DNA of 64,000 nucleotides from Variovorax sp. TBS-050B. Lineage in GTDB: Bacteria; Pseudomonadota; Gammaproteobacteria; Burkholderiales; Burkholderiaceae_C. Positions 22,078-41,886 of the stretch are shown one piece after another. The position numbers and the translations under genes are program-made. The first letter of the stretch is position 1. Each line of letters opens with the position of its first letter. The notes beneath the pieces are model-generated. The model was not told the DNA's origin and ran no database searches. It was given only the letters and a program-made list of their open reading frames with translations. Where the stretch lies: NCBI RefSeq assembly GCF_029893635.1, contig NZ_JARXYR010000001.1, positions 1 through 64,000 of the forward strand, in the 5' to 3' direction.

Positions 22078-22090
22078 AGCTGAAAAACCC

Positions 22091-24834: not shown

Positions 24835-25563
24835 TCAGCATTTCTGGATGCCGATGGTGCGGTTCAGAAGCTCCTCTTCGTCGCGCAGCGCCGCTGCCGG
24901 GCCCGCGTAGGCGGCGATGCCGCGCTCCAGCACGATGACGTTCGTGGAGAAGTCGAGAACCACGTCCACGTGCTGCTCCACGAGGACGCAGCCGACACCG
25001 AGCTGCTCGCTCATGCGAACGATGGCGTCCATCAGCTCCTCGCGCACCATCGGGGCCAGGCCCTCCAGCGGCTCGTCGAGCAGCAGGACGCGCGGCTGCC
25101 CGACGAGTGCGCGCGCCACGGACAGCATCTGCTGCTCGCCGCCCGACAGCTGCGTGCCGCCGTTTCGCCGCCGCTCCTTGAGCCGGGGAAACAGCGCATA
25201 GATCGGCGGCAGGGCCGCGGCGGCCGAGCGCCCCTGCAGGCCCGACAGCAGGTTCTCTTCCACCGTCAGCGAGGGAAAGATGTCGCGGCTCTGCGGCACG
25301 TAGCCGAGGCCGGCCCGCGCGCGCGCATGCGTGCTGGCGCCGCCGATGTCGTTGCCGCCGAAGTGGATGCGACCCTGCATCAGATCGGCCAGCCCCATCG
25401 CGGTGGCGAGCGTGGTCGTCTTGCCGGCGCCGTTGCGCCCGATCAGCCCGAGGCGCTCGCCTTCGCGCACGCTGAAGCTGAGATGCTCGACGACGGGCAC
25501 GCCGCCGTAGCCGGTCGTGACATCGTCGAACCGGAGTTCAATGGGGCGTTGAGGCATGGCCAT
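24835..25563 (-). CDS. Branched-chain-type ABC importer ATPase (LivF-like)
   Basis: A 242-residue LivF-type ATPase. Walker A (GRNGAGKTTT), Q-loop (YVPQSRDIFP), signature LSGGEQQ and Walker B (VLLLDEP) are intact. The gene starts inside the end of the LivG gene and is the last of the long pyridine-degradation transcript. The importer is likely for picolinate or a related acid, judged by context. An alternative ATG lies at 25557. Confidence 0.9.
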   Translation of the reverse strand: MAMPQRPIELRFDDVTTGYGGVPVVEHLSFSVREGERLGLIGRNGAGKTTTLATAMGLADLMQGRIHFGGNDIGGASTHARARAGLGYVPQSRDIFPSLTVEENLLSGLQGRSAAAALPPIYALFPRLKERRRNGGTQLSGGEQQMLSVARALVGQPRVLLLDEPLEGLAPMVREELMDAIVRMSEQLGVGCVLVEQHVDVVLDFSTNVIVLERGIAAYAGPAAALRDEEELLNRTIGIQKC

Positions 25564-26302
25564 CCCGTCCGAAGTAGATCTGTTTGACTTGGGCGTTGGC
25601 GGCGACTTCCCGCGGCGAACCTTCGACCAGCACCGCACCGGCCACGAGGACGATGATGTGGGAGGCGAACCGGAACACCAGGTCCATGTCGTGCTCGATG
25701 AGCAGGACGGACAGTTCCTTCGGCAGACGCCCGATGGCGTCCATGATGCGGCCGCCTTCCCCTTGCGGGACGCCCGCGCCGGGCTCGTCCAGCAGCAGCA
25801 CCCGGGGCTTCATCGCGAGCGCCAGGGCGATCTCCGCAAGTCGCTGTTCGCCGAGCGCCAGCTGTCCCACCACCCGGTTCGCATAGGGATGCAACCCCAG
25901 CATGTCGAGCGTCTCGCAGACCTCGTCGCGGACGCGCGCGGAACGCGACGGCGAGGGCCACCACTGCATCGAAGCCCGCAGCCGCTGCAGCACCGCCACC
26001 TTCACGTTGTCCGCCACCGTCATCTCCTTGAACAGGCGGCTGATCTGGAACGTGCGAACGATGCCGCTGCGCACGCGTGCGTACTGCGGCAGCTGGACGA
26101 TCGGACGGCCGTCCAGCCGGATGTCGCCGGATTGCGGGCGCATCGCCCCGCTCAGCAGGTTGACCAGCGTCGTCTTGCCGGCGCCGTTCGGGCCGATCAG
26201 CGCCGTTCGGGCACCCTCCGGAAGGGACAGCGTGACGTTCTGCGTGACGGCCAGGCCGCCGAAGGAGTGGCAGAGGTCGTGGGTCTGCAGTCGGGGTGTC
26301 AT
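25538..26302 (-). CDS. Branched-chain-type ABC importer ATPase (LivG-like)
   Basis: A 254-residue LivG-type ATPase with Walker A (GPNGAGKTTL), a signature-region LALGEQRLAEIA in place of the usual LSGGQ (normal for LivG, which often reads LSYGQQ or LALGEQ), and Walker B (VLLLDEPGAG). The start overlaps the stop of the LivM gene. It pairs with the LivF-like ATPase in the nucleotide-binding heterodimer. Confidence 0.9.
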   Translation of the reverse strand: MTPRLQTHDLCHSFGGLAVTQNVTLSLPEGARTALIGPNGAGKTTLVNLLSGAMRPQSGDIRLDGRPIVQLPQYARVRSGIVRTFQISRLFKEMTVADNVKVAVLQRLRASMQWWPSPSRSARVRDEVCETLDMLGLHPYANRVVGQLALGEQRLAEIALALAMKPRVLLLDEPGAGVPQGEGGRIMDAIGRLPKELSVLLIEHDMDLVFRFASHIIVLVAGAVLVEGSPREVAANAQVKQIYFGRDGHASTPH

Positions 26303-27315
26303 CGGCCGCCTCCATGGCCCGCGAGCCGCCTGGCGTGCGCCGCGGCCCGGTCCAGAAGGCCGATCAGACCTTCGGGCAGGACGATGAGTACGACGATCAG
26401 CATCGAACCGATGAAGAACAGCCAGTGGTACGGGTTCAGTGTCGATGCGATGTGGTGGATGCTCATGTACGCGACGGTGCCGAGCACCGCGCCCGCCAGG
26501 CGGCGCGTGCCGCCCAGAACGATCATGACGACCACGCCCGCGGACGTCGCGAAATCCAGCATGAAGAGATTGGCCACCTTGCTGGTCTGTGCCGTCAATG
26601 CGCCGGCCAGCCCCGCCACGACGCCGCCGACGGTGTAGACGGCCAGCAGGTGCAGGTACACGCGCCCGCCCAGCGCCTGGACGCGTCCGGGGTCCTGCCG
26701 TATCGCCCTGGCCGTCAGGCCGAAGGGCGATTCGACCAGATGACGCACGAGGAAGTACACCAGCACCAGGGCGCCCAGGGCGTAGAAGTAGCCGGTGCGG
26801 CCCAGGAAGTTGAATTCCCAGACGCCGAACAGGGGCGCGATGTCGAAGCCCGCGAGACCGTCGTCGCCGCCGGTGAGCCATCTGGCCCAGTTGGCGAGCT
26901 CGAGCAGCAGCTGGGCCACGGCGATGGTGAGCATGACCAGCGTGAGCTTGGTCGAGCGCAGCATCACGGCGCCGCTCAGCAGCGCGATCGCGCCGCCGCC
27001 CAGGCCGCCGAGCAGCAGGCCGACGATCGGATCGGCGGTCAGATACAGCGCGGTCCAGCCCGCGACGTAGGCACCGGCGCCGTACAGCGCGGCCTGGCCG
27101 AGGGTCGCGATGCCTGCCTGGCCGAGCACGAGGCTCAGCGACAGTGCAAAGATGGACATCGTCGCCATGTTGGTCAGCAAGCCGAGGTCGTGCGGGAACA
27201 GCACGAAGGCCAGCAGCCCCGCTAGCGTCAGCACGATCTCGCCTCGCAACTGCGTCCATGGGCGCAGGCGGGAGGGCACGGCAGCCACCGCGATGGGCGG
27301 ACTCACCGCGCTCAT
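26299..27315 (-). CDS. Branched-chain-type ABC importer permease (LivM-like)
   Basis: A 338-residue membrane protein with about nine to ten hydrophobic segments and the LivM cytoplasmic motif region (SPFGLTARAIRQDPGRVQALG) near residues 205-225. The start overlaps the stop of the LivH gene by four bases. Expected to form the translocation channel with the LivH-like permease. Confidence 0.9.
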   Translation of the reverse strand: MSAVSPPIAVAAVPSRLRPWTQLRGEIVLTLAGLLAFVLFPHDLGLLTNMATMSIFALSLSLVLGQAGIATLGQAALYGAGAYVAGWTALYLTADPIVGLLLGGLGGGAIALLSGAVMLRSTKLTLVMLTIAVAQLLLELANWARWLTGGDDGLAGFDIAPLFGVWEFNFLGRTGYFYALGALVLVYFLVRHLVESPFGLTARAIRQDPGRVQALGGRVYLHLLAVYTVGGVVAGLAGALTAQTSKVANLFMLDFATSAGVVVMIVLGGTRRLAGAVLGTVAYMSIHHIASTLNPYHWLFFIGSMLIVVLIVLPEGLIGLLDRAAAHARRLAGHGGGR

Positions 27316-28181
27316 GCCCGTCTCCCGAACAGCCCCTGCGGCCGGATCAGCAAGACGATGATCATCGTCAGAAAGAACGCAGCCGAGGCGAGCTGCGGAA
27401 CCATGTATTTCATCGAGGTCTCCACGATGCCGAGCAGCAACGCTGCGAAGAACGAACCGAACAGATTTCCGTTGCCTCCCACGGCGACGACCGCCAGGAG
27501 GATCACCAGGTATTTGGAGGCGTAGGTCGGCTCCATCGGCAGCAGCTCCGCGCCGGCGATGCCGCCCAGCGCCGCGAGCGCGGCACCGATCGCGAAGGTG
27601 GCTGCATAGATCCTTGTCGTGTCGATGCCGATGGCCCGGGCGATCGGCGCGTTGTCGACGGCGGCGCGCACCCGGATGCCGAAGGACGACCGGTCCACGG
27701 TCAGCCACAGAACGGCGACGACCAGGAGCCCGCAGGCGACGACGATGAGCCGGTGCCGGGGGATGGCGCGAAATCCCAGGTCCACCGAGCCGCTGAACGC
27801 CTCGGGCAGCGCGACGGATGTCACCGACGATCCGAACATCAGGTTGACCGCGGCCGTCGCGACGAACATCAGGCCGATGGTCACCAGCATCTGGTCGAGA
27901 TCCTCGCGCCCGTAGAAGCGGCGCAGAAGGACGCGCTCGAACAGCACCGCGACGAGGGCCACGGCGGCGATCGCGAGCACGAAGCCCAGCCCGATCGGCA
28001 CGCCCAGGCGCTGCGGAAGGCTGGCTGCGAGAAACCCGCCGAGCATCGCGAAGGCGCCATGGGCCAGATTCACCACCCGCATCAGACCCATGGTCATCGA
28101 CAGGCCGACGGTGACCATGAACAGGATCATGGCGTAGGCGGTCCCGTCGATCAGAATGCTGCTGAGAAGCGCAACAGACAT
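27312..28181 (-). CDS. Branched-chain-type ABC importer permease (LivH-like)
   Basis: A 289-residue permease opening with hydrophobic helices and the family-typical GLMRVVNLAHGAFAMLGGF, and carrying the conserved SSFGIRVRAAVDNAPIARAIG segment. It starts 15 bases after the solute-binding protein gene. Forms the membrane channel with the LivM-like protein. Confidence 0.9.
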   Translation of the reverse strand: MSVALLSSILIDGTAYAMILFMVTVGLSMTMGLMRVVNLAHGAFAMLGGFLAASLPQRLGVPIGLGFVLAIAAVALVAVLFERVLLRRFYGREDLDQMLVTIGLMFVATAAVNLMFGSSVTSVALPEAFSGSVDLGFRAIPRHRLIVVACGLLVVAVLWLTVDRSSFGIRVRAAVDNAPIARAIGIDTTRIYAATFAIGAALAALGGIAGAELLPMEPTYASKYLVILLAVVAVGGNGNLFGSFFAALLLGIVETSMKYMVPQLASAAFFLTMIIVLLIRPQGLFGRRA

Positions 28182-28196
28182 GCTGCAGTCTCCGCC

Positions 28197-29375
28197 TTAC
28201 TTCGACGCGTTCTGGATGCGGCCGTAGTCGGGTTGCATCTCGAAGGTTCGGAACTCCCGATTGACGAACCGGCCGGACGGATCCTTCTCGACCACGCGCA
28301 TGTAGACGTTCTGCACGAACTCGCGCGAGACCGGGTCGATCTTCACCGGGCCGCGCGGGCTTTCCCAGGAAAAGCCCCTGGCAGCGGCGAGCGCCCTGGC
28401 GCCGTCGCGTTTGCCGTCCGTCGCCTTGACCATGTGATAGATCACATGCAGTCCGTCGAACGCATTCGCGAGCTGGACGGTGGGAATGGCCCTGGGCGCC
28501 ACGTCGGCCAGAGCCTTGACGACCGCATTGTTCAGCGGCGAGTTGTGCGACGCCGAATAGAACATCCCGGTCTCGATCCCGAGCAGCTCGGGCCCGATCG
28601 CGCGCAGCTGATCCTCGTCGGTCTCGCCCGTGCCCAGGAAGCGTACGCCCGCGGCCCTCAGCCCCGCTTCGTTGTAGGCCTTGATCATGGCGTAGGTGGC
28701 CGGGCCGCCGGGGCCGAAGACGTAGAGGGCGTCGGGCTTGAGCGCCTTGACGCGCTGCATCAGCGGCCCGAAATCCGTGGTCTTCAGCGGCGCACGAATG
28801 GCTTCGAGCAGCTTGCCACCGCCGCCGACGAAGGCGGTGGTGAACGCCTTCTCGGCATCGAGGCCGGGGCCGAAGTCGCTGACCAGCGTCACGACATTCC
28901 GCACGTTCTTCTCCAGCGCGTACTTGGCCACGGGGACCGCCATCTGCGGCAGGGTGTACGAGGTGCGCAGCAGGTAGTCCGACCGCTCGAGCAGCGACGA
29001 CGTCGATGCATTGAAGACCACGACGGGCAACTTCGCCTCCTGCGCGAGCGCTGCGACGGCCAGGGTGTCGGGCGTGAAGTAGAGGCCCGCGATGTACTGG
29101 GCGCCTTCCTTGATGACGAGCTCCTGCGCCAGTGCCTTGGCTTGTGCGGGGTTGATCTCCGGCAGGTCGCGGAAGATGACCTCGATCGTGTGTCCGCCCA
29201 CCGTGGTGCCGTTGAGCTTCTGGTAGGCCCTGGTCGCACCCTCCCACGTTTGGCCGACCGCGGAGAACGGTCCGGACATGGGTGCGATCACACCCACCTT
29301 GATGACGTCGGCGCGGCTTTGGAATGCCAGCGCCGCGAGCGAGACCGCCATCGCGGCCATGAGTTTGAGGGTCAT
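28197..29375 (-). CDS. Periplasmic substrate-binding protein of the ABC importer (LivK-like)
   Basis: A 392-residue type I periplasmic binding protein. The N-terminal signal peptide (KLMAAMAVSLAALAFQSRA) is followed directly by VIKVGVIAPMSGPFSAVGQ, the standard start of the mature domain. GGAG lies ahead of the ATG at 29375. An 88-bp gap separates it from the upstream nicF-type gene, the largest in this operon. By context the ligand is likely picolinate or a related pyridine acid; similar receptors bind aromatic acids. Confidence 0.88.
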   Translation of the reverse strand: MTLKLMAAMAVSLAALAFQSRADVIKVGVIAPMSGPFSAVGQTWEGATRAYQKLNGTTVGGHTIEVIFRDLPEINPAQAKALAQELVIKEGAQYIAGLYFTPDTLAVAALAQEAKLPVVVFNASTSSLLERSDYLLRTSYTLPQMAVPVAKYALEKNVRNVVTLVSDFGPGLDAEKAFTTAFVGGGGKLLEAIRAPLKTTDFGPLMQRVKALKPDALYVFGPGGPATYAMIKAYNEAGLRAAGVRFLGTGETDEDQLRAIGPELLGIETGMFYSASHNSPLNNAVVKALADVAPRAIPTVQLANAFDGLHVIYHMVKATDGKRDGARALAAARGFSWESPRGPVKIDPVSREFVQNVYMRVVEKDPSGRFVNREFRTFEMQPDYGRIQNASK

Positions 29376-29463
29376 CTTCTTCTCCAGGTTGAGGGTCGCG
29401 CTCACGGCATGCGCCCGAGCCTTGACGGAAAGGGAACGGAAATCGTGGGTGAATGGGTCGGCG

Positions 29464-30105
29464 TCAGGCCGGGGTACCGTGCCGCTGCGCGGCCGTCGCT
29501 TCCAGGGCGGCGTCGCGGGGCAGCAGGGTCGCGTACTTCTGGTTCATGTCGAACAGGTTGGCCTCGTGCGCCTGCAGCGATCGGTCGCCCACGCAGTCCG
29601 TGACGACGAGGGGGCGGAAGCCGTGGCACATGGCATCCACCACGCTGGCACGCACGCAGCCGCTGGTCGTGCATCCCGCAATCAGCAGGGTCTGCACGCC
29701 GCGTTGAGACAACCAGCCCGCCAGCGACGTGCCGAAGAAGGCCGAAGGATGGATCTTGCGCAGCACCAGTTCGCCGTGCTCGGGCTGGAGCTGCGGAACG
29801 ATCTGGCTTTGCGGCGCGTCCTCGCGCAGCGCGAGGATGGGCGGCACCTTGAGCGCGAAGATGTTGGCGTCGGCGCCGTCGTCCTGGTACACGACCCGCG
29901 TGTGCGCGATCGGCCATCGACGCGCGCGCGCCGCAGCCAGAAGACCGCGCGTACATTCGATCGCCGCATCGATGTTGCCGCCACCGAACGTGAGCGGATC
30001 GGCGAAGCCATTGACGAAGTCGATGATCAGCAGGCCGTACGGCGCCTTGGGCGCAACGGTGTTGCCGAAGCCCTGCTTGCGGTAGATGTCCGGCTCGGTG
30101 CTCAT
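29464..30105 (-). CDS. nicF: Maleamate amidohydrolase (NicF type)
   Basis: A 213-residue isochorismatase-like hydrolase. The catalytic Asp (LIIDFVNGF), Lys (RKIHPSAFFG) and Cys (GCTTSGCVRAS) are all present, and these segments match NicF and N-carbamoylsarcosine amidases. NicF turns maleamate into maleate and ammonia. Its gene overlaps the stop of the nicX-type gene by four bases, and a NicD-type deformylase is in the same cluster, so maleamate is by far the likeliest substrate. Confidence 0.85.
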   Translation of the reverse strand: MSTEPDIYRKQGFGNTVAPKAPYGLLIIDFVNGFADPLTFGGGNIDAAIECTRGLLAAARARRWPIAHTRVVYQDDGADANIFALKVPPILALREDAPQSQIVPQLQPEHGELVLRKIHPSAFFGTSLAGWLSQRGVQTLLIAGCTTSGCVRASVVDAMCHGFRPLVVTDCVGDRSLQAHEANLFDMNQKYATLLPRDAALEATAAQRHGTPA

Positions 30106-31145
30106 TGGAAGGCCTCGTCGATGACCTTGCCATCGCGAACCACGACGACGTCGTCGAGCTTCACCGTGCAGTTGCGCAGCGGAATGTCGAGGTGGCAGGG
30201 CGTGGTGCGCGGGCCGCCGGCCTCGTTGTTCGGGCCCAGCGAGAACAGGAAGTTGCCCTCGAACGCACGCGCGTCCTGGCCGGAGGTCGCTTCGCGGTCC
30301 ATCAGCGACAAGGTATGCCAGTAGCAGCGCGGCTGCATGCCCCAGCCGATGTGGGCGATGGCGTAGGCCTCCGGATCCTTGTAGGCCTCCATGAACTCGC
30401 GCAGCAGGGCGGCGTCGACGTCGCCCTCGATGCTGCGCACGAAGCCTTCGCGCAGGTTCAGCGTGATCCTGTCCGAGGCATAGTTCTTCTGCGGCAGCAG
30501 GATGTCGCCACGGTCGATCACGATCGTGCCGTCGCTGCCGCCCTCGTTGGCGAAGGTGAAGAGGAAGCCGCTCGGCCAGTGATCCCAGCGCCCGGGTTCC
30601 TCGCAGAAGCCGTACTCGCTGATGGTCGGGAAATCGCCGAGCTGGAACGTCACGTCGGTCCCGGCCGGCGAGGTCACGTGCATTCGCCTGGCGGCCTTGA
30701 GCAGCCTCGATGCAGCCAGCACGCGTTGGCGGTCGGCCTCGGTCGGCACCGCCCGCACGAGCACCTCGGGCGGCTCCACCGCCAGGAGAATCTTCGTTCC
30801 CGACTCGAGAATCTCCATCTGCTCCGGCGAGAACAGCAGCAGCATCAGGTCCAGCACGAGGTCGCTGTTCTTCATCGCCGCGAGTGCGACCGGGTTGTTG
30901 GTCAGGGGCGTCTCGCCCAGGTAGTTCATCAGGTCGCGGCTCGGGGCCTTCTCCGCGTTGATGGGCTGCAGCTCGATCCTGGTGACGACCGCGCCGGCGG
31001 CCTGCGCCGCGATCGTCGCGGTCTGCAGCGTCTGAGGATGCGTATGGGGGCCGCACAGGATCGAGACCTTCTGTCCGGGCTCCACCTTGCTGAGCTTCAG
31101 GACCTCGTCCCACGCCTTGACCATCTGGTAATCGCTGACTGGCAT
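30102..31145 (-). CDS. nicX: 2,5-dihydroxypyridine 5,6-dioxygenase (NicX type)
   Basis: A 347-residue iron-dependent ring-cleavage dioxygenase. Remembered NicX sequence matches along its length: ILLAVEPPEVL, EYGFCEEPGRWDHWPSGFLF, YAIAHIGWGMQPR and TPCHLDIPLRNC. The His of HIGWG and the His and Asp of HLD correspond to the metal ligands of NicX. The enzyme opens 2,5-dihydroxypyridine to N-formylmaleamate, the shared step of nicotinate and picolinate breakdown. The fold is related to M29 aminopeptidases, which is a likely misannotation. Confidence 0.9.
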   Translation of the reverse strand: MPVSDYQMVKAWDEVLKLSKVEPGQKVSILCGPHTHPQTLQTATIAAQAAGAVVTRIELQPINAEKAPSRDLMNYLGETPLTNNPVALAAMKNSDLVLDLMLLLFSPEQMEILESGTKILLAVEPPEVLVRAVPTEADRQRVLAASRLLKAARRMHVTSPAGTDVTFQLGDFPTISEYGFCEEPGRWDHWPSGFLFTFANEGGSDGTIVIDRGDILLPQKNYASDRITLNLREGFVRSIEGDVDAALLREFMEAYKDPEAYAIAHIGWGMQPRCYWHTLSLMDREATSGQDARAFEGNFLFSLGPNNEAGGPRTTPCHLDIPLRNCTVKLDDVVVVRDGKVIDEAFQ

Positions 31146-31168: not shown

Positions 31169-32164
31169 TTAGATCTGCAGCAGCGCAAGGTCTTGCGGGC
31201 TGCCCAGCTTGAAGAGCCGGCGGGCGTTGCCGTGGCACACCTGCGCACGGGTTCGCTCGTCGAGCGGCGCCTGCTCGATGAAGGTGCAGGCCTCGGCAGT
31301 GGACTCGTAGGGGTAGTCCACCGAGAAGAGCACGGCATGCGCGCCCAGTTCGCCGATGGCGCCCAGCAATGCCGGTGCGGAGCACACGCCGGACGTGGTG
31401 ATCAGGATGTTGCTGCCGATGTACTCGCTGGGCCTGCGCGCGAGCTTGATGCCCGTCGGGTATGCGGCGAAGCGGCTGTCGATGCGCCAGCGCTGGTACG
31501 GCAGGGCCTCGCCCATGTGGCCCAGCAGCAGGGTCAGCTTCGGGAAACGGTCGAACACGCCGCCGAACAGCAGACGCAGTGCATGCCCGGCCGTCTCCAC
31601 GCCCCATCCCCACGCAGCGCCTTGCAGCACCGGCATGCCTTCCAGCAGCGCGGGCGGCTGGCTGAACGCGTTGGGGTGCAGGTAGATCGGCACGCCGAGC
31701 GCCTGTGCGCGCTCCCAGAAGACATCGAATTCGCTGCCTTCGTAGTAGCGCCCCAGGGTGTGGCCGTTGACCATCGCGCCCTTGAAGCCATGCTCGACGA
31801 CGGTGCGTTCCAGTTCCCTGGCCGCCGCCGCCGGATCCTGCAGCGCCACGTGGGCGAAGGCGCCGAACCGTTGCGGATGGCGCGCCACGCGCTCGGCGAG
31901 GAACTCGTTGTTCTCGCGTGCGCGGCGGACGGCGGCGGCGCCGTCCACCTCGGCCTGCACGCCGGGCATCGTCTGCGACAGCACCGCATACTCGATGTTT
32001 CCCGCGTCCATTGCGGCCAGCCGCTGGTCGTCGAAGTCGCTGAGCCGGGCATTGAGCCTGGCGACGAAGTCGGGCGGCAGCACCCGCGTGTACTTGGCCG
32101 CGTACACGTCGAAGCCGGGGGCGGAGAAGTGCTCTTCGAGCGCGATCTTGGGGGTTTTATTCAT
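31169..32164 (-). CDS. Amidohydrolase-family nonoxidative decarboxylase (3,6-dihydroxypicolinate decarboxylase candidate)
   Basis: A 331-residue amidohydrolase-2 protein. The N-terminal IALEEHF gives the Glu and His metal ligands of gamma-resorcylate-type decarboxylases; IYLHPNAF supplies another His and LFSVDYPYE the catalytic Asp. Such enzymes remove carboxyl groups from hydroxyaromatic acids. In the picolinate pathway described in Alcaligenes faecalis, a decarboxylase of this family makes 2,5-dihydroxypyridine from 3,6-dihydroxypicolinate. Its position just upstream of the nicX-type gene fits that step. The exact substrate is inference. Confidence 0.82.
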   Translation of the reverse strand: MNKTPKIALEEHFSAPGFDVYAAKYTRVLPPDFVARLNARLSDFDDQRLAAMDAGNIEYAVLSQTMPGVQAEVDGAAAVRRARENNEFLAERVARHPQRFGAFAHVALQDPAAAARELERTVVEHGFKGAMVNGHTLGRYYEGSEFDVFWERAQALGVPIYLHPNAFSQPPALLEGMPVLQGAAWGWGVETAGHALRLLFGGVFDRFPKLTLLLGHMGEALPYQRWRIDSRFAAYPTGIKLARRPSEYIGSNILITTSGVCSAPALLGAIGELGAHAVLFSVDYPYESTAEACTFIEQAPLDERTRAQVCHGNARRLFKLGSPQDLALLQI

Positions 32165-32182: not shown

Positions 32183-32698
32183 TCAGACCGGGTACGCCAG
32201 GGCTGTGTCGAGAATTTCCGTGTCGTGCACCACTTCGCGGCTGGCAATGAGCAGCCGCTCGCCTTCGCGCACGAAATGGTCGTGGTAGATGCCCGCCAGA
32301 TGCACGGTGGTGGGCCCTTCGACCAGGGTCTGCATCAGGATGAAGGGCGTCTGCGCGCTGATCGTCCGGTCCGTCTCCTGCAGCACACGCGTGATCCCGA
32401 GCACATGCAGCATGTGCCGCGGCGCGAACATCTGCGAGTGCGCGACGGCCAGCGCACGGTCGGTGATCATGTCCAGTCCCTCGCAGTAGACGAGTCCCAC
32501 GGGCATGTCCAGCAGCGCGTTCTGGCGCGAGGTGATCCGGTACGTCGCTTCCTTGCTGAAGAAGTCGGGCCAGCGCTCGACGTCGTTGGCGTCGAGGGCG
32601 GCGCAGTACTCGGCATGAAAGGCGTCGATCTCGGCGCGCAGCTCGGCCGCGCGATGCGGCGCGACCGCGGTTCTGGCGTAGGCAAGCCGCTCCTTCAT
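32183..32698 (-). CDS. Rieske oxygenase small (beta) subunit
   Basis: A 171-residue protein of the ring-hydroxylating dioxygenase beta family (NTF2-like fold), with typical EIDAFHAEYCAALDANDVERW and an ending rich in beta strands. It has no redox centre and stabilises the alpha subunit hexamer. Its ATG overlaps the alpha-subunit stop by four bases, so the two are coupled. Confidence 0.87.
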   Translation of the reverse strand: MKERLAYARTAVAPHRAAELRAEIDAFHAEYCAALDANDVERWPDFFSKEATYRITSRQNALLDMPVGLVYCEGLDMITDRALAVAHSQMFAPRHMLHVLGITRVLQETDRTISAQTPFILMQTLVEGPTTVHLAGIYHDHFVREGERLLIASREVVHDTEILDTALAYPV

Positions 32699-34030: not shown

Positions 34031-35284
34031 TTAAACGGTGGAAGCGGCGCCGGCCCGCATCTGCCGGACCCAGGCGCGCAGGTTCGTGGCGTCCTGCCGG
34101 AAGTCGTCGAACTCGAGGGGTTGCCCCTGTTCGAAGAGCGGACGAAGCGCTCGCAGATCGGCGCCCGCGTTGACGGCGACGCCGTGCAGCGGAACGCCGT
34201 CGCGGTGGCCGATCCACAGCGACTTGCCGCCGGCCGGGTCGCCCCGGCGCACATATGCGAGATCGGGGGCGGGCAGGCCGAGCACCTGGATGTTGTGGGG
34301 TCCCTGGTCGGTCCAGAACCAGGGCACGGCCGGCGTCGGAACGGGCGCACCGAGCATGGCGGCGGCGGCGGTGCGTGCCTGCTCGTTCGCGTTCTGCCAG
34401 GATTCCATGCGTGTGGGCCCCGCCTGGCCGGGACGCTGCTGGCTGGTGCAGTCGCCACAGGCGAACACGCGTTCGTCGCTCGTGCGGCACAGCGCGTCAA
34501 CCAGAATGCCGCCGCCTGCCGCAATCTGCAGACCCGCGTCGCGGGCCAATCCGTCATTGGGCGAAAGACCGATGGCGACGACGACCTCGTCCACCGCCAG
34601 GTCCCCGGCATCGGTGGCCAGGCGGATGCGGCCGCCGGGCAGGCTCTGGAGGCCGCCGAGCGAGGTTCCGAGCATGAGCCGCGCACCTGCCTGCCGCAAT
34701 CCGGACGCCAGCCATGCCGATGCCTCGGGGGGCAGAAAGCGATCGAGCAGGGAGGTGGCGCGTTCGAGCACGGTCACCGTCGCTCCCGCTGCCAGTGCGG
34801 CGTTCGCAATCTCGAGGCCGAGGAAGCCGCCGCCCAGGACCGCGACCTGCGGCCTGTGCTGGAGGGCGGCGCGCAGCCGCCGCGCGTCATCGAGGGTGCG
34901 GACATGGTGCACGTGGGGCGTTCCGGCCGGCGCGCAGGCCAGCGTATTCGCCTCCCCACCCGTGGCGATGAGGCACATGTCGTACCCGATCACCTCGCCG
35001 CCGGCCAGGCGAACCTGCCGCCTCGAAAGATTCAGCGCGCTCGCTTCGCTGCTGCGGCGCAGATCGATGTCGCCGAGCGCCCACGCCTCTTGCGCGACGA
35101 CGTCGAGGATGGGCTCTTCGGCCGCGACCAGAACGGCCTTGGACAGGGGCGGCCGCTCGTACGGCCTGTGGCGCTCCCGTCCCAGCATCGTGATGCGGCC
35201 GCGATGGCCGTGTTCGCGCAGCGCCTGTGCCGCGACGGCCGCCGCCTGGCCGGCGCCGATGATGAGCACGTCCGGTGACGTCAT
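34031..35284 (-). CDS. FAD-dependent ferredoxin reductase of the Rieske oxygenase
   Basis: A 417-residue flavoprotein of the pyridine nucleotide-disulfide family. FAD-binding (VLIIGAGQAAAVAAQAL) and NAD-binding (VAVLGGGFLGLEIANAA) Rossmann motifs are intact, as is the second FAD motif ERVFACGDCTS. It passes electrons from NAD(P)H to the adjacent Rieske ferredoxin. Its start overlaps the ferredoxin stop by four bases. Confidence 0.9.
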   Translation of the reverse strand: MTSPDVLIIGAGQAAAVAAQALREHGHRGRITMLGRERHRPYERPPLSKAVLVAAEEPILDVVAQEAWALGDIDLRRSSEASALNLSRRQVRLAGGEVIGYDMCLIATGGEANTLACAPAGTPHVHHVRTLDDARRLRAALQHRPQVAVLGGGFLGLEIANAALAAGATVTVLERATSLLDRFLPPEASAWLASGLRQAGARLMLGTSLGGLQSLPGGRIRLATDAGDLAVDEVVVAIGLSPNDGLARDAGLQIAAGGGILVDALCRTSDERVFACGDCTSQQRPGQAGPTRMESWQNANEQARTAAAAMLGAPVPTPAVPWFWTDQGPHNIQVLGLPAPDLAYVRRGDPAGGKSLWIGHRDGVPLHGVAVNAGADLRALRPLFEQGQPLEFDDFRQDATNLRAWVRQMRAGAASTV

Positions 35285-35598
35285 TTGCCGGCCGGCGACA
35301 GCACGTAGATGTCGTCGCCCTCCCGCTTCACGGCATGGATGCGCAGGTCCACCGTGACCGGCGCGCACATCGCCTTGCCCGTGCGAATGTCGAAGCGCCC
35401 CTGGTGCAGAGGGCATTCGACGCAGCCGTCCTCGACGTAGCCCTCCGACAGCAGCGCCGTGGCATGCGTGCACATGCTGTCCGTGGCGAAGAACTCGTCG
35501 TCGATGCGAAACAGCGCGACGCCGTGGCCGCCGACATTGACGGTCTTGGCTTCATCGTTGCTCAGCTCCCGGGCCGAGGCGACCTTGATCCAGTCCAT
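35281..35598 (-). CDS. Rieske-type ferredoxin
   Basis: A 105-residue electron carrier with the Rieske motif C-T-H at about 43-45 and C-P-L-H about 62-65. It carries electrons from the reductase to the oxygenase. It is first in the minus-strand operon and starts 34 bp downstream of an operator-like palindrome, so it is probably the promoter-proximal gene of an approximately 10.8-kb transcript ending at 24835. Confidence 0.9.
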   Translation of the reverse strand: MDWIKVASARELSNDEAKTVNVGGHGVALFRIDDEFFATDSMCTHATALLSEGYVEDGCVECPLHQGRFDIRTGKAMCAPVTVDLRIHAVKREGDDIYVLSPAGK

Positions 35599-35632: not shown

Positions 35633-35646
35633 GTCAGTGTACTGAC
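35633..35646. promoter_or_regulatory. Operator candidate 1 of the pyridine-degradation cluster
   Basis: GTCAGT-GT-ACTGAC is a perfect 6-2-6 inverted repeat 35 bp upstream of the ferredoxin start. Almost the same site recurs upstream of the divergent operon. The symmetry and spacing suit a MarR-type dimer, and a MarR gene lies in the cluster. From memory, sites bound by the picolinate regulator PicR are described as TCAG-N4-CT-like, which this matches; that recollection could not be checked. Confidence 0.65.
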
Positions 35647-35770
35647 ATAAATAGGGAAATGTCTTGTGTTTTTTTGTGCGGGTTTGTACGGTGCCGTGGC
35701 GCACCAGAATGGATTTTCGAATCCACTGTCTATGCATCAAAGCAGCGCATTTCCATTGGGGAAACGCACC

Positions 35771-35863
35771 ATGATCGAGAAAGTGGCGGCGTTGATTGCC
35801 GCGTTGGAAAAAATCGGCTTTCCATGCGCCGAGCGCGCGCGTACACTTATGACAGTTAACTGA
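35771..35863 (+). CDS. Possible 30-residue peptide in the divergent promoter region
   Basis: An ATG at 35771 with GGGG about nine bases upstream opens a 30-codon frame encoding a helix-prone peptide (MIEKVAALIAALEKIGFP). It lies between the two divergent operons and its stop falls inside operator candidate 2. It could be a leader peptide or chance. No homology is known to me. Confidence 0.25.
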   Translation: MIEKVAALIAALEKIGFPCAERARTLMTVN

Positions 35864-35864
35864 C
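35851..35864. promoter_or_regulatory. Operator candidate 2 of the pyridine-degradation cluster
   Basis: GACAGT-TA-ACTGAC differs from operator candidate 1 by one base in the half-sites and by the two spacer bases. It lies 134 bp upstream of the molybdenum hydroxylase large subunit. The pair suggests that one regulator controls both divergent operons. Confidence 0.62.
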
Positions 35865-35997
35865 TTAATCGCGAGGCATGGGCCCGGCGGCTCACCCTGG
35901 ATCGACACGCTGTGTGCACATCGGCGTCATGATTCATGCGTCGAACAGCCGAAGCGGTGCAGTCCGGTACGAGGACACCAGAAGGAGAAGCAAACGC

Positions 35998-38379
35998 ATG
36001 GACCACGCAGACATCCCGCAGAGACTGTTGAAGCGCGAGGGCATCGGCGCCCGGGTACCCCGCAAGGAGGACGCGCGCCATCTGGTGGGCAAGGGGAATT
36101 TCGTGGGCGACTTCGTGCTGCCGGGCCTTCAGGAGGTCGCGTTCCTCCGGAGTCCTCTGGCGCACGCTGCCATTACGGGCGTCGAGATTCCCGAAGCCCT
36201 CGCCGGAAAGGTGTTCCTGCGCGAGATGATGTTGGACGCGGCAGACATCGGTTCACCTTCCTCGCTGCCCACCTACCAGTACTCGGCCTTGCCGCCGTTG
36301 GCCTCGGGCAAGGTTCGCCACGTGGGAGAGGCCATCGCCATGGCTGTTGCGCCGACGCGCGCTGTGGCGGAGGACCTGCTGGAGGAAGTGCAGGTCTCGT
36401 ATGACGAACTGCCCGTCTACCACGGCGCCGAGTCCGCGCTCGCCGCCACGGGAGAGTTCATGCACCCCGGTTGGAAGGACAACGTGTTCCTCACGCTGCG
36501 GGCCAATCGCGACTTCGAGGAGCTTGCCGCGAAGGCCGAGGTGAAGGTCAGCCGCACGGTCGAGCTGTCACGCCAGTGCATCGTGCCGCTGGAGGGGAAG
36601 TCGGTCCTGGCGTACTGGGATTTCCAGGCCGATCAACTGGTGGTCGTCAGTGCGACGCAGGTCCCGCATCTGCTGCGCGTGGGAATCGCCCAGCACCTGT
36701 CGATGAACGAGGAAGCCGTGCGCGTCGTGTCGCCGGACGTCGGCGGCGCCTTCGGCTACAAGGGGCAGCTCTACCCCGAAGACCTGTGCGTGGCCTGGCT
36801 GGCCAAGACGTACCGCACGCCGTTCCGCTACCTCGAGGATCGACGCGAGCACCTGATCGTCGGGGCCAACACGCGGCAGCATCACTATCGGCTCACGGCC
36901 TATGCGGACCGCACCGGACGGCTCCTGGCGCTGGATGCCGTCATCACCATCGACGGCGGCGCCTATTCCTACTATCCCTTCTTCGTCGGCCTGGAGCCTG
37001 GCCAGGCGATCGGCAACCTGCCGGGCCCCTACAGCTTCCGCGGCTATCGCTGCGAGACCGTGTGCGTCGCGACCAACAAGCCCGGGTTCATGGCCTATCG
37101 CGGCGTCGCGCGCACCGGCGTCTGCTTCGCGATCGAACTCCTCATGGACGCCGTGGCGCGCGAGGTGGGGCGCGAGCCTTGGCAGGTCCGGATGGAGAAC
37201 CTGGTGCCGGCCGCTGCCATGCCCTATGTCAATGTGGCCAACAAGCACTTCGACAGCGGCGACTTTCCGGCCAGCCTGCGGCGCGCGGTGGAGATGATCG
37301 GACTGGAGGCCGTGCGCGAGCGACAGGCGCGCGGAGAGGCGGACGGGCGCCTGATCGGCTTCGGCACCGCCACCTACACCGAGCAGTCCGCCCACGGCAC
37401 GACGGTGTTCGCCAACTGGGGCTTGCCGGTGGTGCCCGGCTTCGACCAGGCGGTGGTCAGGATGACCGCGGATGGCGGACTCGAGGTGCGCGTCGGCGTG
37501 CACTCGCACGGCCAGGGCATGGAGACCAGCTTCGCGCAGATCGCGAACGACGTGCTCGGGATTCCGGTGGCAAGAATCCGGGTGGTGCATGGCGACACCG
37601 CGCTCACCCCGTTCTCCTCCGGCACCTATGCGTCGCGCGCCACGGTCATGTCGGGAGGCGCCATCTCGGTCGCGTGCAAGGAGCTGCTGCCGCGCATCCG
37701 GTCGATCGCGGCCTACCTCATGGGCGTGGATGCGCAGGCCGTCGCGTTGATCGAAGGGCGCGCCGTGGCCGGCGACAGGTCGATCCCGCTCTCGGAAGTC
37801 GGGCGCGCGTGGTACCTCACGCCGCAGGACCTGCCGGCCGACGTTCATCTCGGCGGCCTCGAGGTGTCGCGTGCGTACAAGCCCAACGTCGATACCGGCA
37901 CCTTCACCTATGCGACGCATGCGGTGGTGGTGGCCGTCGACACCGAGACGGGCGAGGTCGAGATTCTCGACTACGTCGTCGTCGAGGACTGCGGCACCAT
38001 GGTCAACCCGATGATCGTGGAGGGGCAGACGATCGGCGGCATCGCGCAGGGCATCGGCACCGCGATGTACGAGGAGAGCCCTTACGACGACCAGGGCCAG
38101 CCGCTGGCCTCCACGCTGGCGGACTACATCCTGCCGGGCGCCACGGAAGTGCCGCGCATCCGCATCGAACACTTCGAGACACCGTCGCCGCACACCGAGT
38201 TCGGCGCCAAGGGGGTGGGCGAGGGCGGTGCGATCGCGCCGCCGGCGGTGATCTTCAATGCCGTGAACGACGCCTTGCGCGGCACCGGCGCCGCCGAGGT
38301 ACTGATGACGCCGCTGACGCCGCGCCGTTTGCTCGCAGCCTTCGAGGGTGCGAAGCACCCACAGGAGCACGCCCGATGA
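35998..38379 (+). CDS. Molybdopterin-binding large subunit of a hydroxylase (picolinate 6-hydroxylase candidate)
   Basis: A 793-residue large subunit of the xanthine dehydrogenase/CoxL family. The molybdopterin-site regions are seen (DVGGAFGYKGQLYPED, FMAYRGVARTGVCF), and the catalytic Glu is in GVGEGGAIAPP near the C terminus. Such enzymes hydroxylate N-heterocycles with water. In the described picolinate route a three-component dehydrogenase makes 6-hydroxypicolinate. The large-medium-small gene order resembles CO-dehydrogenase-type hydroxylases. An AGGAG ribosome-binding site precedes the ATG at 35998. Confidence 0.9.
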   Translation: MDHADIPQRLLKREGIGARVPRKEDARHLVGKGNFVGDFVLPGLQEVAFLRSPLAHAAITGVEIPEALAGKVFLREMMLDAADIGSPSSLPTYQYSALPPLASGKVRHVGEAIAMAVAPTRAVAEDLLEEVQVSYDELPVYHGAESALAATGEFMHPGWKDNVFLTLRANRDFEELAAKAEVKVSRTVELSRQCIVPLEGKSVLAYWDFQADQLVVVSATQVPHLLRVGIAQHLSMNEEAVRVVSPDVGGAFGYKGQLYPEDLCVAWLAKTYRTPFRYLEDRREHLIVGANTRQHHYRLTAYADRTGRLLALDAVITIDGGAYSYYPFFVGLEPGQAIGNLPGPYSFRGYRCETVCVATNKPGFMAYRGVARTGVCFAIELLMDAVAREVGREPWQVRMENLVPAAAMPYVNVANKHFDSGDFPASLRRAVEMIGLEAVRERQARGEADGRLIGFGTATYTEQSAHGTTVFANWGLPVVPGFDQAVVRMTADGGLEVRVGVHSHGQGMETSFAQIANDVLGIPVARIRVVHGDTALTPFSSGTYASRATVMSGGAISVACKELLPRIRSIAAYLMGVDAQAVALIEGRAVAGDRSIPLSEVGRAWYLTPQDLPADVHLGGLEVSRAYKPNVDTGTFTYATHAVVVAVDTETGEVEILDYVVVEDCGTMVNPMIVEGQTIGGIAQGIGTAMYEESPYDDQGQPLASTLADYILPGATEVPRIRIEHFETPSPHTEFGAKGVGEGGAIAPPAVIFNAVNDALRGTGAAEVLMTPLTPRRLLAAFEGAKHPQEHAR

Positions 38380-39227
38380 AAGCGGCAAAGTTCGGATACA
38401 CGCGCGTCCTCGAAGTGAACGAGGCGATCGCAGCGCTGGCGGCCGGCGGTGGCGCGACCAAGGCCATGAGCGGGAGCCAGTCTCTCGGCCCGATGCTCAA
38501 CCTGAGGCTGGCGCGGCCCGCGCAGGTGGTCGACGTCGCGCACATCCCCGGGCTTCGCACCGTCAGCCGCAAGGCGGGCTGGGTCGAGATCGGCGCCGCC
38601 GTCACCCATGCCGAGATCGAGGATGGCGTGCACCCGCCGCTGGCGCAGCATCCCATGCGCCAGGTCGCGCGCGGCATCGCCTACCGCGCGATCCGCACCC
38701 GAGGCACCGTCGGTGGCAGCCTCGCGCATGCCGATCCCGCGGCCGACTGGGTGGTGACGCTCGCGGCGCTCGGTGCGCGCCTGGTGGTCGGGTCGCCGCG
38801 GGGCGAGCGCACGATCGAGGCCGACGCGTTCATGCTCGGCGCCTACACGACGGTGCTCGCGTCCGATGAACTGATCGTCTCCATTGCCGTGCCTGCGGAG
38901 ACCCCCGCCACGCGCTGGGGCTACCACAAGGTCTGCCGCAAGCCGGGCGAGTTTGCGGAGGCCAGCGCGGCCGTGTACTTCGATGCCTCGCGCCAGCGCG
39001 CGCGCATCGTCCTGGGCGCCGCCGATGGTCCTCCCCTTCTGCTGCAGGCACTCGCGGACGAGATCGCGCGCCGGGGCGCGCCCGCGGCCGGCCGTGCGTC
39101 ACTGCAATCGGCGGTACAGGCCGCGCTTCCCGAGCGGGACGCCATCGACCAGAAGCGTTTCACGGCCTGCGTGGAGCGCGCACTCGAACACGCCGGCGTC
39201 TTCGCCGGTCCCGAACAAGCGGAGTAG
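38376..39227 (+). CDS. FAD-binding medium subunit of the molybdenum hydroxylase
   Basis: A 283-residue CoxM-type subunit. FAD-binding segments are seen as AMSGSQSLGPMLNLRLARP near 30-50 and TRGTVGGSLAHADPAADW near 110. It transfers electrons from the 2Fe-2S clusters to an acceptor. The ATG overlaps the large-subunit stop by four bases. Confidence 0.9.
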   Translation: MKAAKFGYTRVLEVNEAIAALAAGGGATKAMSGSQSLGPMLNLRLARPAQVVDVAHIPGLRTVSRKAGWVEIGAAVTHAEIEDGVHPPLAQHPMRQVARGIAYRAIRTRGTVGGSLAHADPAADWVVTLAALGARLVVGSPRGERTIEADAFMLGAYTTVLASDELIVSIAVPAETPATRWGYHKVCRKPGEFAEASAAVYFDASRQRARIVLGAADGPPLLLQALADEIARRGAPAAGRASLQSAVQAALPERDAIDQKRFTACVERALEHAGVFAGPEQAE

Positions 39228-39232
39228 AAGAC

Positions 39233-40444
39233 TTGGAACCGATTTCCATTCATGTGAACGGCCGCAGTTTCAGCCGGCAGGCGGAGCCCAGGACGCATCT
39301 TGGCGACTTCCTGCGCGACGAGCTCCGGCTGACGGGCACGCACCTCGGCTGCGAACACGGCGTCTGCGGCGCCTGCACGGTGCTCGTCGACGGCGAGCCC
39401 ACGCGCGCGTGCATCACGTTCGCCGTGGCATGCGAGGGCCGCGAGATCACCACCATCGAGGGCTACGACGATGACGCGGTGATGCAATGCCTGCGGCAGG
39501 CGTTCACGCGCCACCACGCGTTGCAGTGCGGCTTCTGCACCCCGGGGATGCTCGCCACGGCGCGCGACATCGTGCTTCGCCTGCCGGAAGCTGACGAAGC
39601 GCGCGTGCGCCTCGAGCTCTCCGGAAATCTGTGCCGCTGCACCGGCTACCAGGGCATCGTGGATGCGATCCTGGACGTGTTGCAGCAGCAGCGCGCCAAC
39701 CCGGACGTGCAGTTCGAGCAACTGCGCCAGAGAGCGGGCGCGCCGCGAACGGCCGCGACGGCGCGTGTCACGGCAGCGCGGCAGGCCGAACCGTCCCTTC
39801 CATCGCCCGGCAAGCCGGCGGCATCCGATACGGCCGCGGACATGGCGGAAGTCGATCCGGTGGCGATGGCCAGGGCCAAGGCGAAAGGCAACGCGATCGA
39901 AGTCCATTTCGATGTGCCGCATCCCGTCGACCGGGTCTGGGATTTCATGGGCGACCTGCCTGCGGTGGCGTCCTGCCTGCCCGGCGCGACCATCGACACG
40001 CACGAGGGAGAAAGAGTCAAGGGCAGCATCGCGATCAAGTTCGGCCCGATGTCGGCCGCCTTCGCCGGCGCCGCGCGGCTGGAACGCGACGATGCCGCCC
40101 GGCGCGCCGTGCTTCGGGGGGCGGGCCAGGACAGCCTGAGCAAGTCGCGCACCCAGGGCGACATCAGCTATCGGCTCGAAGCACTGTCGGCTGGCAACAC
40201 CCGGGTCCACGTGGACATGGTCTACGCGCTGCAGGGTCCGCTCGCGCAATTTTCCCGCTCGGGGCTGGTCAAGGACTTCGTGCGCCGCATGGTGGCCGAC
40301 TTCGGCAGGCAGATCACCCGCAGACTGGACGGGCAAGCCGCGCCGGTCGACGCGCCGCAAGCCACGGTCTCCGTCGCCGCAGTGATGTGGGGTGTGCTCT
40401 GGGGCCGCATCCGTGGCTGGTTCGGCAGGCCCCCACGGGCGTAA
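39233..40444 (+). CDS. 2Fe-2S small subunit fused to a CoxG-like SRPBCC domain
   Basis: A 403-residue fusion. Residues 1-155 are a typical small subunit: plant-type cluster CEHGVCGACTV and second cluster CGFCTPGM with CRCTGY. A proline/alanine-rich linker (about 160-205) leads to a SRPBCC/CoxG domain (about 215-350). The tail (about 375-403) is hydrophobic then basic, with VSVAAVMWGVLWGRIRGWFG. CoxG in CO dehydrogenase systems is membrane-associated and linked to quinone reduction, so the fused domain may anchor the hydroxylase or deliver electrons to quinone. Start is TTG at 39233, five bases after the medium subunit. Small subunits are usually 150-170 residues. Confidence 0.85.
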   Translation: MEPISIHVNGRSFSRQAEPRTHLGDFLRDELRLTGTHLGCEHGVCGACTVLVDGEPTRACITFAVACEGREITTIEGYDDDAVMQCLRQAFTRHHALQCGFCTPGMLATARDIVLRLPEADEARVRLELSGNLCRCTGYQGIVDAILDVLQQQRANPDVQFEQLRQRAGAPRTAATARVTAARQAEPSLPSPGKPAASDTAADMAEVDPVAMARAKAKGNAIEVHFDVPHPVDRVWDFMGDLPAVASCLPGATIDTHEGERVKGSIAIKFGPMSAAFAGAARLERDDAARRAVLRGAGQDSLSKSRTQGDISYRLEALSAGNTRVHVDMVYALQGPLAQFSRSGLVKDFVRRMVADFGRQITRRLDGQAAPVDAPQATVSVAAVMWGVLWGRIRGWFGRPPRA

Positions 40445-40459
40445 CAACTCGGAGTCGCA

Positions 40460-41266
40460 ATGAGTTCCTTTCTTCATGGCTATCACGTGCGCGCCAACGG
40501 GGTGCGGCTGCACCTCCTGCGCTACGGCGGCCAGGGCCCGCGCATGCTCCTGCTGCCGGGCATCACGAGCCCGGCGGTCACCTGGGGTTTCGTCGCCGGG
40601 CGATTGGCTCGCCACTTCGACGTTCATGTCCTGGACTTCCGCGGACGCGGCCTGTCGTCCAGCGCGCCCGGGATGGACGCAAGCCTCGACGCCATGGCGG
40701 CCGACGTGCTCGATCTGATGGAGGTCCAGGGATGGTCGTCCGTCACGCTGCTGGGTCATTCGATGGGCGCGCGCGTGGCGATCCGTGCCGCCGCGCGCGA
40801 CGCCGGGCGCATCGGCAGGCTGCTGCTGGTCGACCCCCCGGTGTCCGGCCCGGGCCGCCGCGCCTATCCCGTGCCGCTGCCCTGGTACGTGGACTCCATC
40901 CGGATGGCGGTCCATGGCATCACGGCCGACGCGCTTCGCCCTTACGCGCCGAGCTGGACCGACGAACAACTGCAGCTGCGGGCCGAGTGGCTCCACACCT
41001 GCAGCGAGGAGGCCGTCATCCAGGCCCATGCCGGCTTCCACGACGACGACATCCACGCCGATCTGGCGAAACTGCAGACACCCGGGCTCCTCATGACGGC
41101 GGGCCAGGGTGGTGTGGTGCTGGCGGAAGACCTCGCGGAGATCGGGGCGCTCGCGCCATGCCTGCAGCAATGCACGGTGCCAGGCGCCGGTCACATGATC
41201 CCGTGGGACGACGAGGAAGGCTTCCACCGCGTGCTGGGCGCTTATCTGAAGGTCGACCTGCCGTAG
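40460..41266 (+). CDS. nicD: N-formylmaleamate deformylase (NicD type)
   Basis: A 268-residue alpha/beta hydrolase. It matches remembered NicD sequence in long stretches: GITSPAVTWGFVAGRL, LLGHSMGAR (nucleophile Ser), VDPPVSGPGRRAYPVPLPWY and GAGHMIPWDD (catalytic His). NicD removes the formyl group from N-formylmaleamate to give maleamate. It follows the hydroxylase genes by 15 bases. Its substrate is the product of the NicX-type enzyme on the opposite strand, which ties the two operons together. Confidence 0.88.
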   Translation: MSSFLHGYHVRANGVRLHLLRYGGQGPRMLLLPGITSPAVTWGFVAGRLARHFDVHVLDFRGRGLSSSAPGMDASLDAMAADVLDLMEVQGWSSVTLLGHSMGARVAIRAAARDAGRIGRLLLVDPPVSGPGRRAYPVPLPWYVDSIRMAVHGITADALRPYAPSWTDEQLQLRAEWLHTCSEEAVIQAHAGFHDDDIHADLAKLQTPGLLMTAGQGGVVLAEDLAEIGALAPCLQQCTVPGAGHMIPWDDEEGFHRVLGAYLKVDLP

Positions 41267-41346
41267 CGGCGCCGCAGGCACAGTTGGCCCATTCACGCAG
41301 GGGGCAGCCGATACACTCGCCGGCTGACACTATTGGCGATCTCGAG

Positions 41347-41886
41347 ATGATGACGAAGCGTTCTCCCGCCCGGAAGAAGAAGACGGTCGGCGCAACAGAG
41401 CCGGAAGCGGCAAAGCCCCCGGGCTCCGAACCTTTCAACCCGCTGCGCGAAGTCATGTGGCGGCGTCCGGGCTTCCTGATCCGTCGGCTGACCCAGATCG
41501 GCCAGGCGATCTTTTTCGATCTGTGCAAGTCCGAGAGCATCACGCCGCTGCAGGTCGGCATGCTGACGGCGTTGTCGATGAACCCCTGGCTCGACCAGAA
41601 GGCGATCGGCAGGGAGCTGTCCCTGGACCGGACGACGACGGCGGAAGTGCTCAAGCGCCTGGCCGACAAGGGGCTCGTGGAAACGCGCGTCAATCCGGAC
41701 GATCGTCGATCCAGACTTTCGGTGATCACCAAGGACGGCCTGAACCTGATCAACGACCTGCAGGAAAGCATCCATCGATCGCAGGAGCTGCTGATCGAAC
41801 CGCTGTCTCCCGAGGATCGCGCCGTCTTCATGAAACTGCTGGCCCAGCTCGTGGACGCCCACGAGAAGATGGAGAAGCGGGAATAG
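41347..41886 (+). CDS. MarR-family regulator (NicR/PicR-like)
   Basis: A 179-residue MarR protein with the winged helix at about 75-135 (QKAIGRELSLDRTTTAEVLKRL and NPDDRRSRLSV). A basic N-terminal extension (KRSPARKKKT) precedes it. NicR and PicR, regulators of nicotinate and picolinate breakdown, belong to this family and act as repressors released by pathway intermediates. It lies 80 bp after nicD in the same direction and is the obvious candidate to bind the palindromes at 35633 and 35851. Confidence 0.86.
   Translation: MMTKRSPARKKKTVGATEPEAAKPPGSEPFNPLREVMWRRPGFLIRRLTQIGQAIFFDLCKSESITPLQVGMLTALSMNPWLDQKAIGRELSLDRTTTAEVLKRLADKGLVETRVNPDDRRSRLSVITKDGLNLINDLQESIHRSQELLIEPLSPEDRAVFMKLLAQLVDAHEKMEKRE

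Follow-up and report, generated by a model that had tools for sequence, protein, structure and literature searches.

Variovorax sp. TBS-050B (NCBI RefSeq assembly GCF_029893635.1) carries on contig NZ_JARXYR010000001.1 a set of genes which probably constitutes a picolinate-catabolic (pic) cluster with a co-induced Liv importer, located on a probable secondary replicon. Picolinate is a chelator and a product of the tryptophan pathway. The stretch analyzed, positions 1 to 64,000 of the forward strand, is referred to as the window. The cluster occupies positions 24835-41886 and consists of two divergent, tightly packed operons, one on the minus strand (35598 to 24835) and one on the plus strand (35998 to 41886), separated by 399 bp. 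This description draws on gene content, orthology, catalytic residues, palindromes and the linkage of the importer, as read from the DNA. The pathway is already known; the type of importer and the absence of the last enzyme are the new details.

For the Variovorax strain we infer the substrate, each reaction, the repression, the co-transcription and the ligand of the importer as follows. Picolinate would be taken up by the ATP-binding cassette (ABC) importer LivKHMGF and converted to 6-hydroxypicolinate by the molybdenum hydroxylase PicA. The four-component Rieske oxygenase PicB is predicted to form 3,6-dihydroxypicolinate, which PicC would decarboxylate to 2,5-dihydroxypyridine. Ring opening by PicD would yield N-formylmaleamate, from which PicE would remove formate and PicF then ammonia, leaving maleate. 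PicR is the putative repressor of both divergent operons, whose promoters each have a CAGTnnACTG palindrome through which it would act, so that importer and enzymes would be induced together.

Gene content and catalytic residues

All genes named in the original prediction, which had been made from the sequence alone and had proposed two divergent transcripts, were recovered when the open reading frames were scanned against Pfam and start sites were chosen, and the proposed end points are the exact ends of livF (24835) and of the MarR gene (41886). The minus-strand operon starts with the four genes of PicB, all present by Pfam: the Rieske ferredoxin (35281..35598; PF00355), the ferredoxin reductase (34031..35284; PF07992 and PF14759), the oxygenase alpha subunit (32695..34005; PF00355 and PF00848; best Protein Data Bank (PDB) match salicylate 5-hydroxylase 7c8z) and the beta subunit (32183..32698; PF13577/PF00866). 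These are followed by picC, of the 3,6-dihydroxypicolinate decarboxylase type (31169..32164; PF04909, amidohydrolase_2), picD, of the NicX type of 2,5-dihydroxypyridine 5,6-dioxygenase (30102..31145; sole PDB sequence match NicX 7cn3, E 1.9e-120), picF, of the NicF type of maleamate amidohydrolase (29464..30105; PF00857; best PDB match 3ot4/3uao, E 2.5e-89), and livK, livH, livM, livG and livF. The plus-strand operon comprises the three subunits of PicA, likewise complete by Pfam, namely the molybdopterin large subunit (35998..38379; PF02738 and PF20256; best PDB match quinoline 2-oxidoreductase 1t3q), the FAD subunit (38376..39227; PF00941) and a 2Fe-2S subunit fused at its C-terminus to a CoxG domain (39233..40444; PF00111, PF01799 and PF06240), followed by picE, a NicD-type alpha/beta hydrolase of the N-formylmaleamate deformylase type (40460..41266; PF00561), and the MarR-type regulator gene picR (41347..41886; PF12802; start chosen). 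Gaps within the operons range from -26 to +25 bp, save for 88 bp between livK and picF and 80 bp between picE and picR.

The grouping of these genes is not due to chance, because three annotated Variovorax plasmids carry the same genes in the same order, and the full set recurs in a Noviherbaspirillum locus and in four more loci of Variovorax. Two of the three plasmids carry one extra MFS gene after livF, between livF and lysR, which the window lacks. In distinction from the pic genes of Alcaligenes faecalis JQ135 and Bordetella bronchiseptica RB50, the LivKHMGF genes of the Variovorax cluster end the picB operon and picA faces picB. Compared by description, both strains hold the same set of PicA to PicF together with a MarR-type PicR (PMC10142695).

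For comparison, the genomes of 535 relatives were scanned with an alignment of PicC and the best 80 loci were retained. Loci with an oxygenase alpha subunit of at least 55% were taken as pic-positive (46 of the best 80); the other 34 were set aside, some of them merely because of a short contig or the end of a flank, e.g. L037 and L053 (Bordetella; picA and picC match). Loci L021-L026 and L067 form the close group (7 of the 46), and the remaining 39 serve as the outside comparison. Gene counts per locus rest on tblastn, as our own gene calls missed or mis-called some genes (e.g. picC in L022). A candidate neighbor family, 'u3', turned out to be the gene of the PicA large subunit read in antisense and was dropped.

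The assignment to the pic pathway made in the original prediction is borne out by the orthology of the enzymes to pic clusters, by conserved catalytic residues and by a common promoter palindrome. The PicA large subunit was matched in 41 of the 46 pic loci, a few of these at 32-33%, which represent a different hydroxylase; in the outside comparison tblastn found it in 34 of 39 loci at 32-72%, with 27 of the 39 at 63-72%. PicB reductase and ferredoxin were each matched in 44 of the 46 pic loci and the beta subunit in 42, whereas the alpha subunit is present in all 46, and at 60-75% in all 39 outside loci, by selection, since it is the inclusion criterion. PicC shows 53-66% identity in 39 of 39 outside loci. 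Locus L053 of B. ansorpii, a species reported to carry pic genes (PMC10142695), has PicC at 65% and the PicA large subunit at 69%.

A quick PicC tree, which raised a long-branch warning that includes L038 and the outgroup, separates 49 pic-side rows, the window among them, from five outgroup rows with a Shimodaira-Hasegawa-like approximate likelihood ratio (SH-aLRT) value of 99. On this tree the window falls into a group of Variovorax and Noviherbaspirillum (100), which Ramlibacter joins next (98). Alanine mutants of H163 and H216 in PicC of RB50 lost all activity (PMC10142695). Both histidines are kept at the same positions in the window and are invariant in 54 of 54 rows; because the five outgroup rows keep them too, they indicate an intact member of the decarboxylase family, not its substrate.

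The fusion of CoxG to the 2Fe-2S subunit goes beyond what had been noted earlier. When the 80 loci were searched, 28 of the 33 with any match had one spanning both parts, from which the fusion is taken as a general trait of PicA, not particular to the window. By analogy with CoxG of carbon monoxide dehydrogenase, the domain is guessed to tie the hydroxylase to the membrane. The pic-like loci L038, L047 and L056 hold a different molybdenum hydroxylase near picB/picC (32-33% to the PicA large subunit, with a separate 2Fe-2S subunit), L056 having both kinds; in these loci the lower pathway may be the same but start from another upper substrate.

The lower pathway is likewise shared, with PicD at 41-71% in 36, PicE at 51-62% in 35 and PicF at 39-73% in 37 of the 39 outside loci. 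The PicE and PicF types were assigned at the family level, with matches in 40 and 44 of the 46 pic loci, respectively. In 45 of 45 rows PicD keeps the iron ligands of NicX (H265, S302, H318 and D320) as well as its substrate residues L104, E177 and H189 (residues from PMC7910607). Position 105 is F in all 45 rows and H in NicX, whose H105 alanine mutant is dead while H105F stays active; NicX is strongly specific for 2,5-dihydroxypyridine (PMC7910607). The residues of PicD thus fit a 2,5-dihydroxypyridine dioxygenase, and PicD appears as a branch of its own.

The original prediction of a complete-looking pathway is not supported as regards the last step. The cluster contains no maleate isomerase gene, a point not noted earlier. 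Because no ortholog of the maleate isomerase PicG was found in the genome, the encoded pathway is predicted to end at maleate in this strain, unless another, non-orthologous enzyme takes over. PicG was read from place and family as the PF17645 protein at L028:11007-11759. Members of this protein family occur at 60% or more in 28 of the 46 pic loci and in 0 of the 7 close-group loci. A PicG-type match is present at 64-86% in four of the seven Variovorax genomes with the cluster (G005, G007, G014 and G015), and none was found at E 1e-20 in G000, G009 and G020. Three pic-linked PF17645 proteins share two cysteines, which we take to be catalytic. Two PF17645 members of the TBS-050B genome were rejected as maleate isomerase, being 24-25% identical to the pic-linked protein, with the first cysteine missing in both. 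A maleate hydratase of the aconitase/LeuC family was also considered; the five stretches found (two full length, three partial) were read as probable housekeeping genes. In JQ135 picG lies outside the cluster too, and in RB50 it is located between picC and picE (PMC10142695), in contrast to the Variovorax genome. What replaces maleate isomerase is one question posed by the cluster.

Promoter palindrome and Liv importer

The operator-like palindrome CAGTNNACTG (CAGTnnACTG) occurs exactly twice in the window, both times inside the 399-bp divergent region, as CAGTGTACTG on the picB side (35635..35644) and as CAGTTAACTG on the picA side (35853..35862), neither with an assigned strand. When this region was aligned for eight sequences, one from the window and the others from seven relatives, a single block emerged close to either promoter. 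The block on the picB side is conserved among the relatives, and the picA-side copy is degenerate in L022, L023, L067, L024, L106 and L107; L021, L022, L023 and L067 have one exact copy each, on the picB side. With 0.61 copies expected in the window and two copies reached in 16 of 100 shuffles, the palindrome is telling by its place and not by its number. Of the 57 exact copies counted across the 46 pic loci, 50 avoid pic coding sequence and stand no more than 300 bp upstream of a pic gene, compared to 3.3 expected under an even spread, a simple control with no adjustment for base composition. At least one such upstream copy is present in 26 of the 46 loci, and the cluster offers a test of whether the pic promoters of different lineages carry the same palindrome as their mark.

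Binding of PicR to this site is putative; the MarR gene is present, and the palindrome is shared with other pic loci. TCAGN4CT, reportedly the motif of PicR, shows no enrichment in the window, with 19 occurrences against 22.9 expected, and the full palindrome is the only one to stand out. A promoter scan (one site, 1.6 expected) and terminator-like sites (seven, 6.8 expected) were little informative. According to a cited paper title, PicR is a MarR repressor of the pic genes in JQ135 (PMC12016517, PMC10740729).

The importer is encoded by livK, a substrate-binding protein gene of the aromatic-acid-binding subgroup (28197..29375), the livH-type and livM-type permease genes (27312..28181 and 26299..27315; both PF02653) and the livG-type and livF-type ATPase genes (25538..26302 and 24835..25563; both PF00005), all on the minus strand, with starts chosen for livM, livG and livF. 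LivK, together with two permeases and two ATPases, represents an aromatic-acid-binding HAAT-type ABC importer of the RPA0985/RPB_2270 subgroup, and is 48-49% identical to these two proteins. On present sequence evidence the importer belongs with the pic cluster, because the LivK gene lies 1.8 kb from picC in seven of seven Variovorax genomes with PicC at 87% or more. No LivK match was found near the 65% picC type in two of two cases (E 1e-40, up to 31 candidates scored per genome). One Variovorax genome, G005, carries both PicC types (C1:1646275 and C1:4464238); its 65% PicC has a maleate-isomerase-type gene beside it and no LivK match nearby, and its 87% PicC is accompanied by LivK. In locus L105 of another Variovorax (G023:C54:254000-273900), the neighbors of a 64% LivK importer set are a MarR gene and a different Rieske oxygenase with its reductase, and a TIR-domain protein is encoded close by. 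Nothing on ABC uptake of picolinate was found in the open-licence literature searched, which does not prove absence, as the JQ135 papers lie outside it.

For the transporters of other pic clusters, recurrent neighbors were clustered and one member from each of ten families was scanned; these and others were then searched in the loci. A TRAP component (DctP, DctM or both) is found in Alcaligenaceae, Polaromonas, Rhodobacterales and an Alcanivorax. In most Alcaligenaceae loci the TRAP system is seen as the DctP binding-protein gene alone, within the stretch examined. This gene is divergent to picB, and a gene picT is named beside picB in the literature (PMC10142695); because its position fits the description, we infer that the DctP gene is picT. 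MFS genes occur in the pic loci of Paraburkholderia, Caballeronia and their relatives. A second HAAT-type binding protein together with MFS is found in Cupriavidus, with permeases and ATPases 28-40% identical to those of the window, and in Bradyrhizobium. The Ramlibacter loci hold an NMT1-type binding protein, an ATPase gene and a DctP gene. Some loci contain more than one type of transporter; L056 has two other binding-protein types and L027 also a HAAT set.

Because other pic lineages carry TRAP, MFS, an NMT1-type ABC or another ABC system, the pic pathway, as judged from these loci, is conserved while the importer is swapped among lineages. Transporter labels of our own, given to 41 of the 46 loci (five unlabelled), require 5 changes on the PicC tree, with a minimum of 4 and a mean of 21.6 after shuffling, whereby descent alone clusters such labels. 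The importer had been regarded as an added feature of this cluster; this stands for its type, which is particular here, but not for the presence of a transporter, which other pic clusters share with different families. The comparison suggests that a catabolic pathway can retain its enzymes while exchanging its importer. In Rhodopseudomonas palustris, ABC importers and the TRAP system TarPQM serve one set of aromatic acids (PMC3610893).

Alternative readings

Several observations weigh against a picolinate pathway with its own importer. The acids held by the solved relatives of LivK are benzene acids, and in the binding survey (PMC3223731) 'picolin', 'nicotin' and 'pyridine' each occur 0 times. 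Identity between PicC of the window's group and the group with the canonical type is only about 60-70%, so that a shift in substrate is possible. Exact upstream palindromes are absent from 20 of the 46 pic loci, including L024 of the window's own group. Finally, neither the window nor the genome (99.98% complete) yielded an ortholog of PicG; the best matches in the genome were 31% over a partial length and 29%.

Degradation of another pyridine carboxylic acid converging on 2,5-dihydroxypyridine (e.g. 3-/5-hydroxypicolinate, quinolinate, dipicolinate or an alkylpicolinate) is considered decidedly unlikely. Fusaric acid is an alkylpicolinate, and an efflux set with FUSC, the fusaric-acid-resistance family, is encoded at 10742-15588; in addition, the window's PicC group forms a separate branch, and the two PicC types of G005 (87% and 65%) would be redundant if they did the same job. 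Yet the upper-pathway enzymes are orthologous as a set (the 63-72% of PicA and 60-75% of PicB alpha given above), the promoter palindrome is common to pic loci, and V. paradoxus VAI-C has no annotated FUSC gene within 14 kb of the match. A benzene analog (salicylate-like acids) in place of a pyridine is extremely improbable: the best solved matches are indeed salicylate 5-hydroxylase for the oxygenase and gamma-resorcylate decarboxylase for PicC, but the ring-cleavage enzyme is of the NicX type with all ligands, followed by a NicF type, and the specificity of NicX for 2,5-dihydroxypyridine is reportedly strong (PMC7910607). On this NicX/NicF-type lower half a benzene pathway was set aside. The nicotinate (nic) cluster of the Pseudomonas putida type shares the lower half of NicX, NicD and NicF. 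It contains a NicC-type FAD monooxygenase and a NicA/NicB hydroxylase with cytochrome domains, instead of which the Variovorax cluster has a Rieske oxygenase and a decarboxylase. As had been predicted, neither a NicC type nor a cytochrome-bearing hydroxylase domain was found among the scanned cluster open reading frames, and a nicotinate cluster was set aside.

That LivKHMGF carries something else (hydroxybenzoate, another aromatic acid or 6-hydroxypicolinate) and is merely co-transcribed appears unlikely. The nearest solved relatives of LivK are Rhodopseudomonas proteins, with a hydroxybenzoic-type acid in the title of three of four, and RPA0985 binds 4-hydroxybenzoate (PMC3223731). The 64% LivK paralog of G023 adjoins a different Rieske oxygenase, and two Variovorax plasmids also carry the MFS gene mentioned above. 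Against this stand the linkage of LivK to picC in 7/7 genomes and its absence near the 65% picC type in 2/2, the operon-like spacing, with no terminator-like site in the 88-bp gap between livK and picF, and the presence of other transporters in other pic clusters. In comparison with the R. palustris aromatic-acid importers (RPA0985, RPB_2270; CouPSTU), LivK has the same fold but is linked to pyridine-acid genes. With this cluster it can be tested whether a member of the hydroxybenzoate-binding subgroup of ABC importers has changed over to a pyridine acid.

The preferred reading remains a picolinate cluster with a co-induced Liv importer. A more specific version of it is tentative and falls somewhat short of probable: LivKHMGF would be a dedicated high-affinity picolinate importer and an exchangeable pic module (ABC of three sorts, TRAP, MFS), and the maleate formed in this strain, like that in two of six relatives, would be consumed by an enzyme that shares no descent with the known maleate isomerase.

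Genomic setting

The window is the start of a contig of 600,856 bases. A ParA-type ATPase (271-1584) and a Rep_3-type initiator (2066-3442) are encoded at its start, for which reason the contig is probably a secondary replicon, likely with its replication/partition region at the beginning. Close copies of the cluster are present on four Variovorax plasmid records, with 83-87% DNA identity over 86-95% of the query. The window contains no tRNA and no Rfam match at gathering scores.

A LysR gene (23916-24788) located 46 bp past livF and an acyl-CoA dehydrogenase gene 103 bp past the MarR gene were not counted in the system. The efflux set, with genes for an outer-membrane efflux protein, a HlyD-type protein and FUSC, lies about 9 kb from the pic cluster. 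Positions 43955-48076 are occupied by a single open frame of 1373 amino acids with CheB, CheR, PAS, histidine kinase and receiver domains. The genes at 17168-23919 encode PrpF-type, OB-fold, thiolase, SDR, CoA transferase, enoyl-CoA hydratase and Bug-type binding proteins, and V. paradoxus VAI-C has them in the same order next to its pic cluster.

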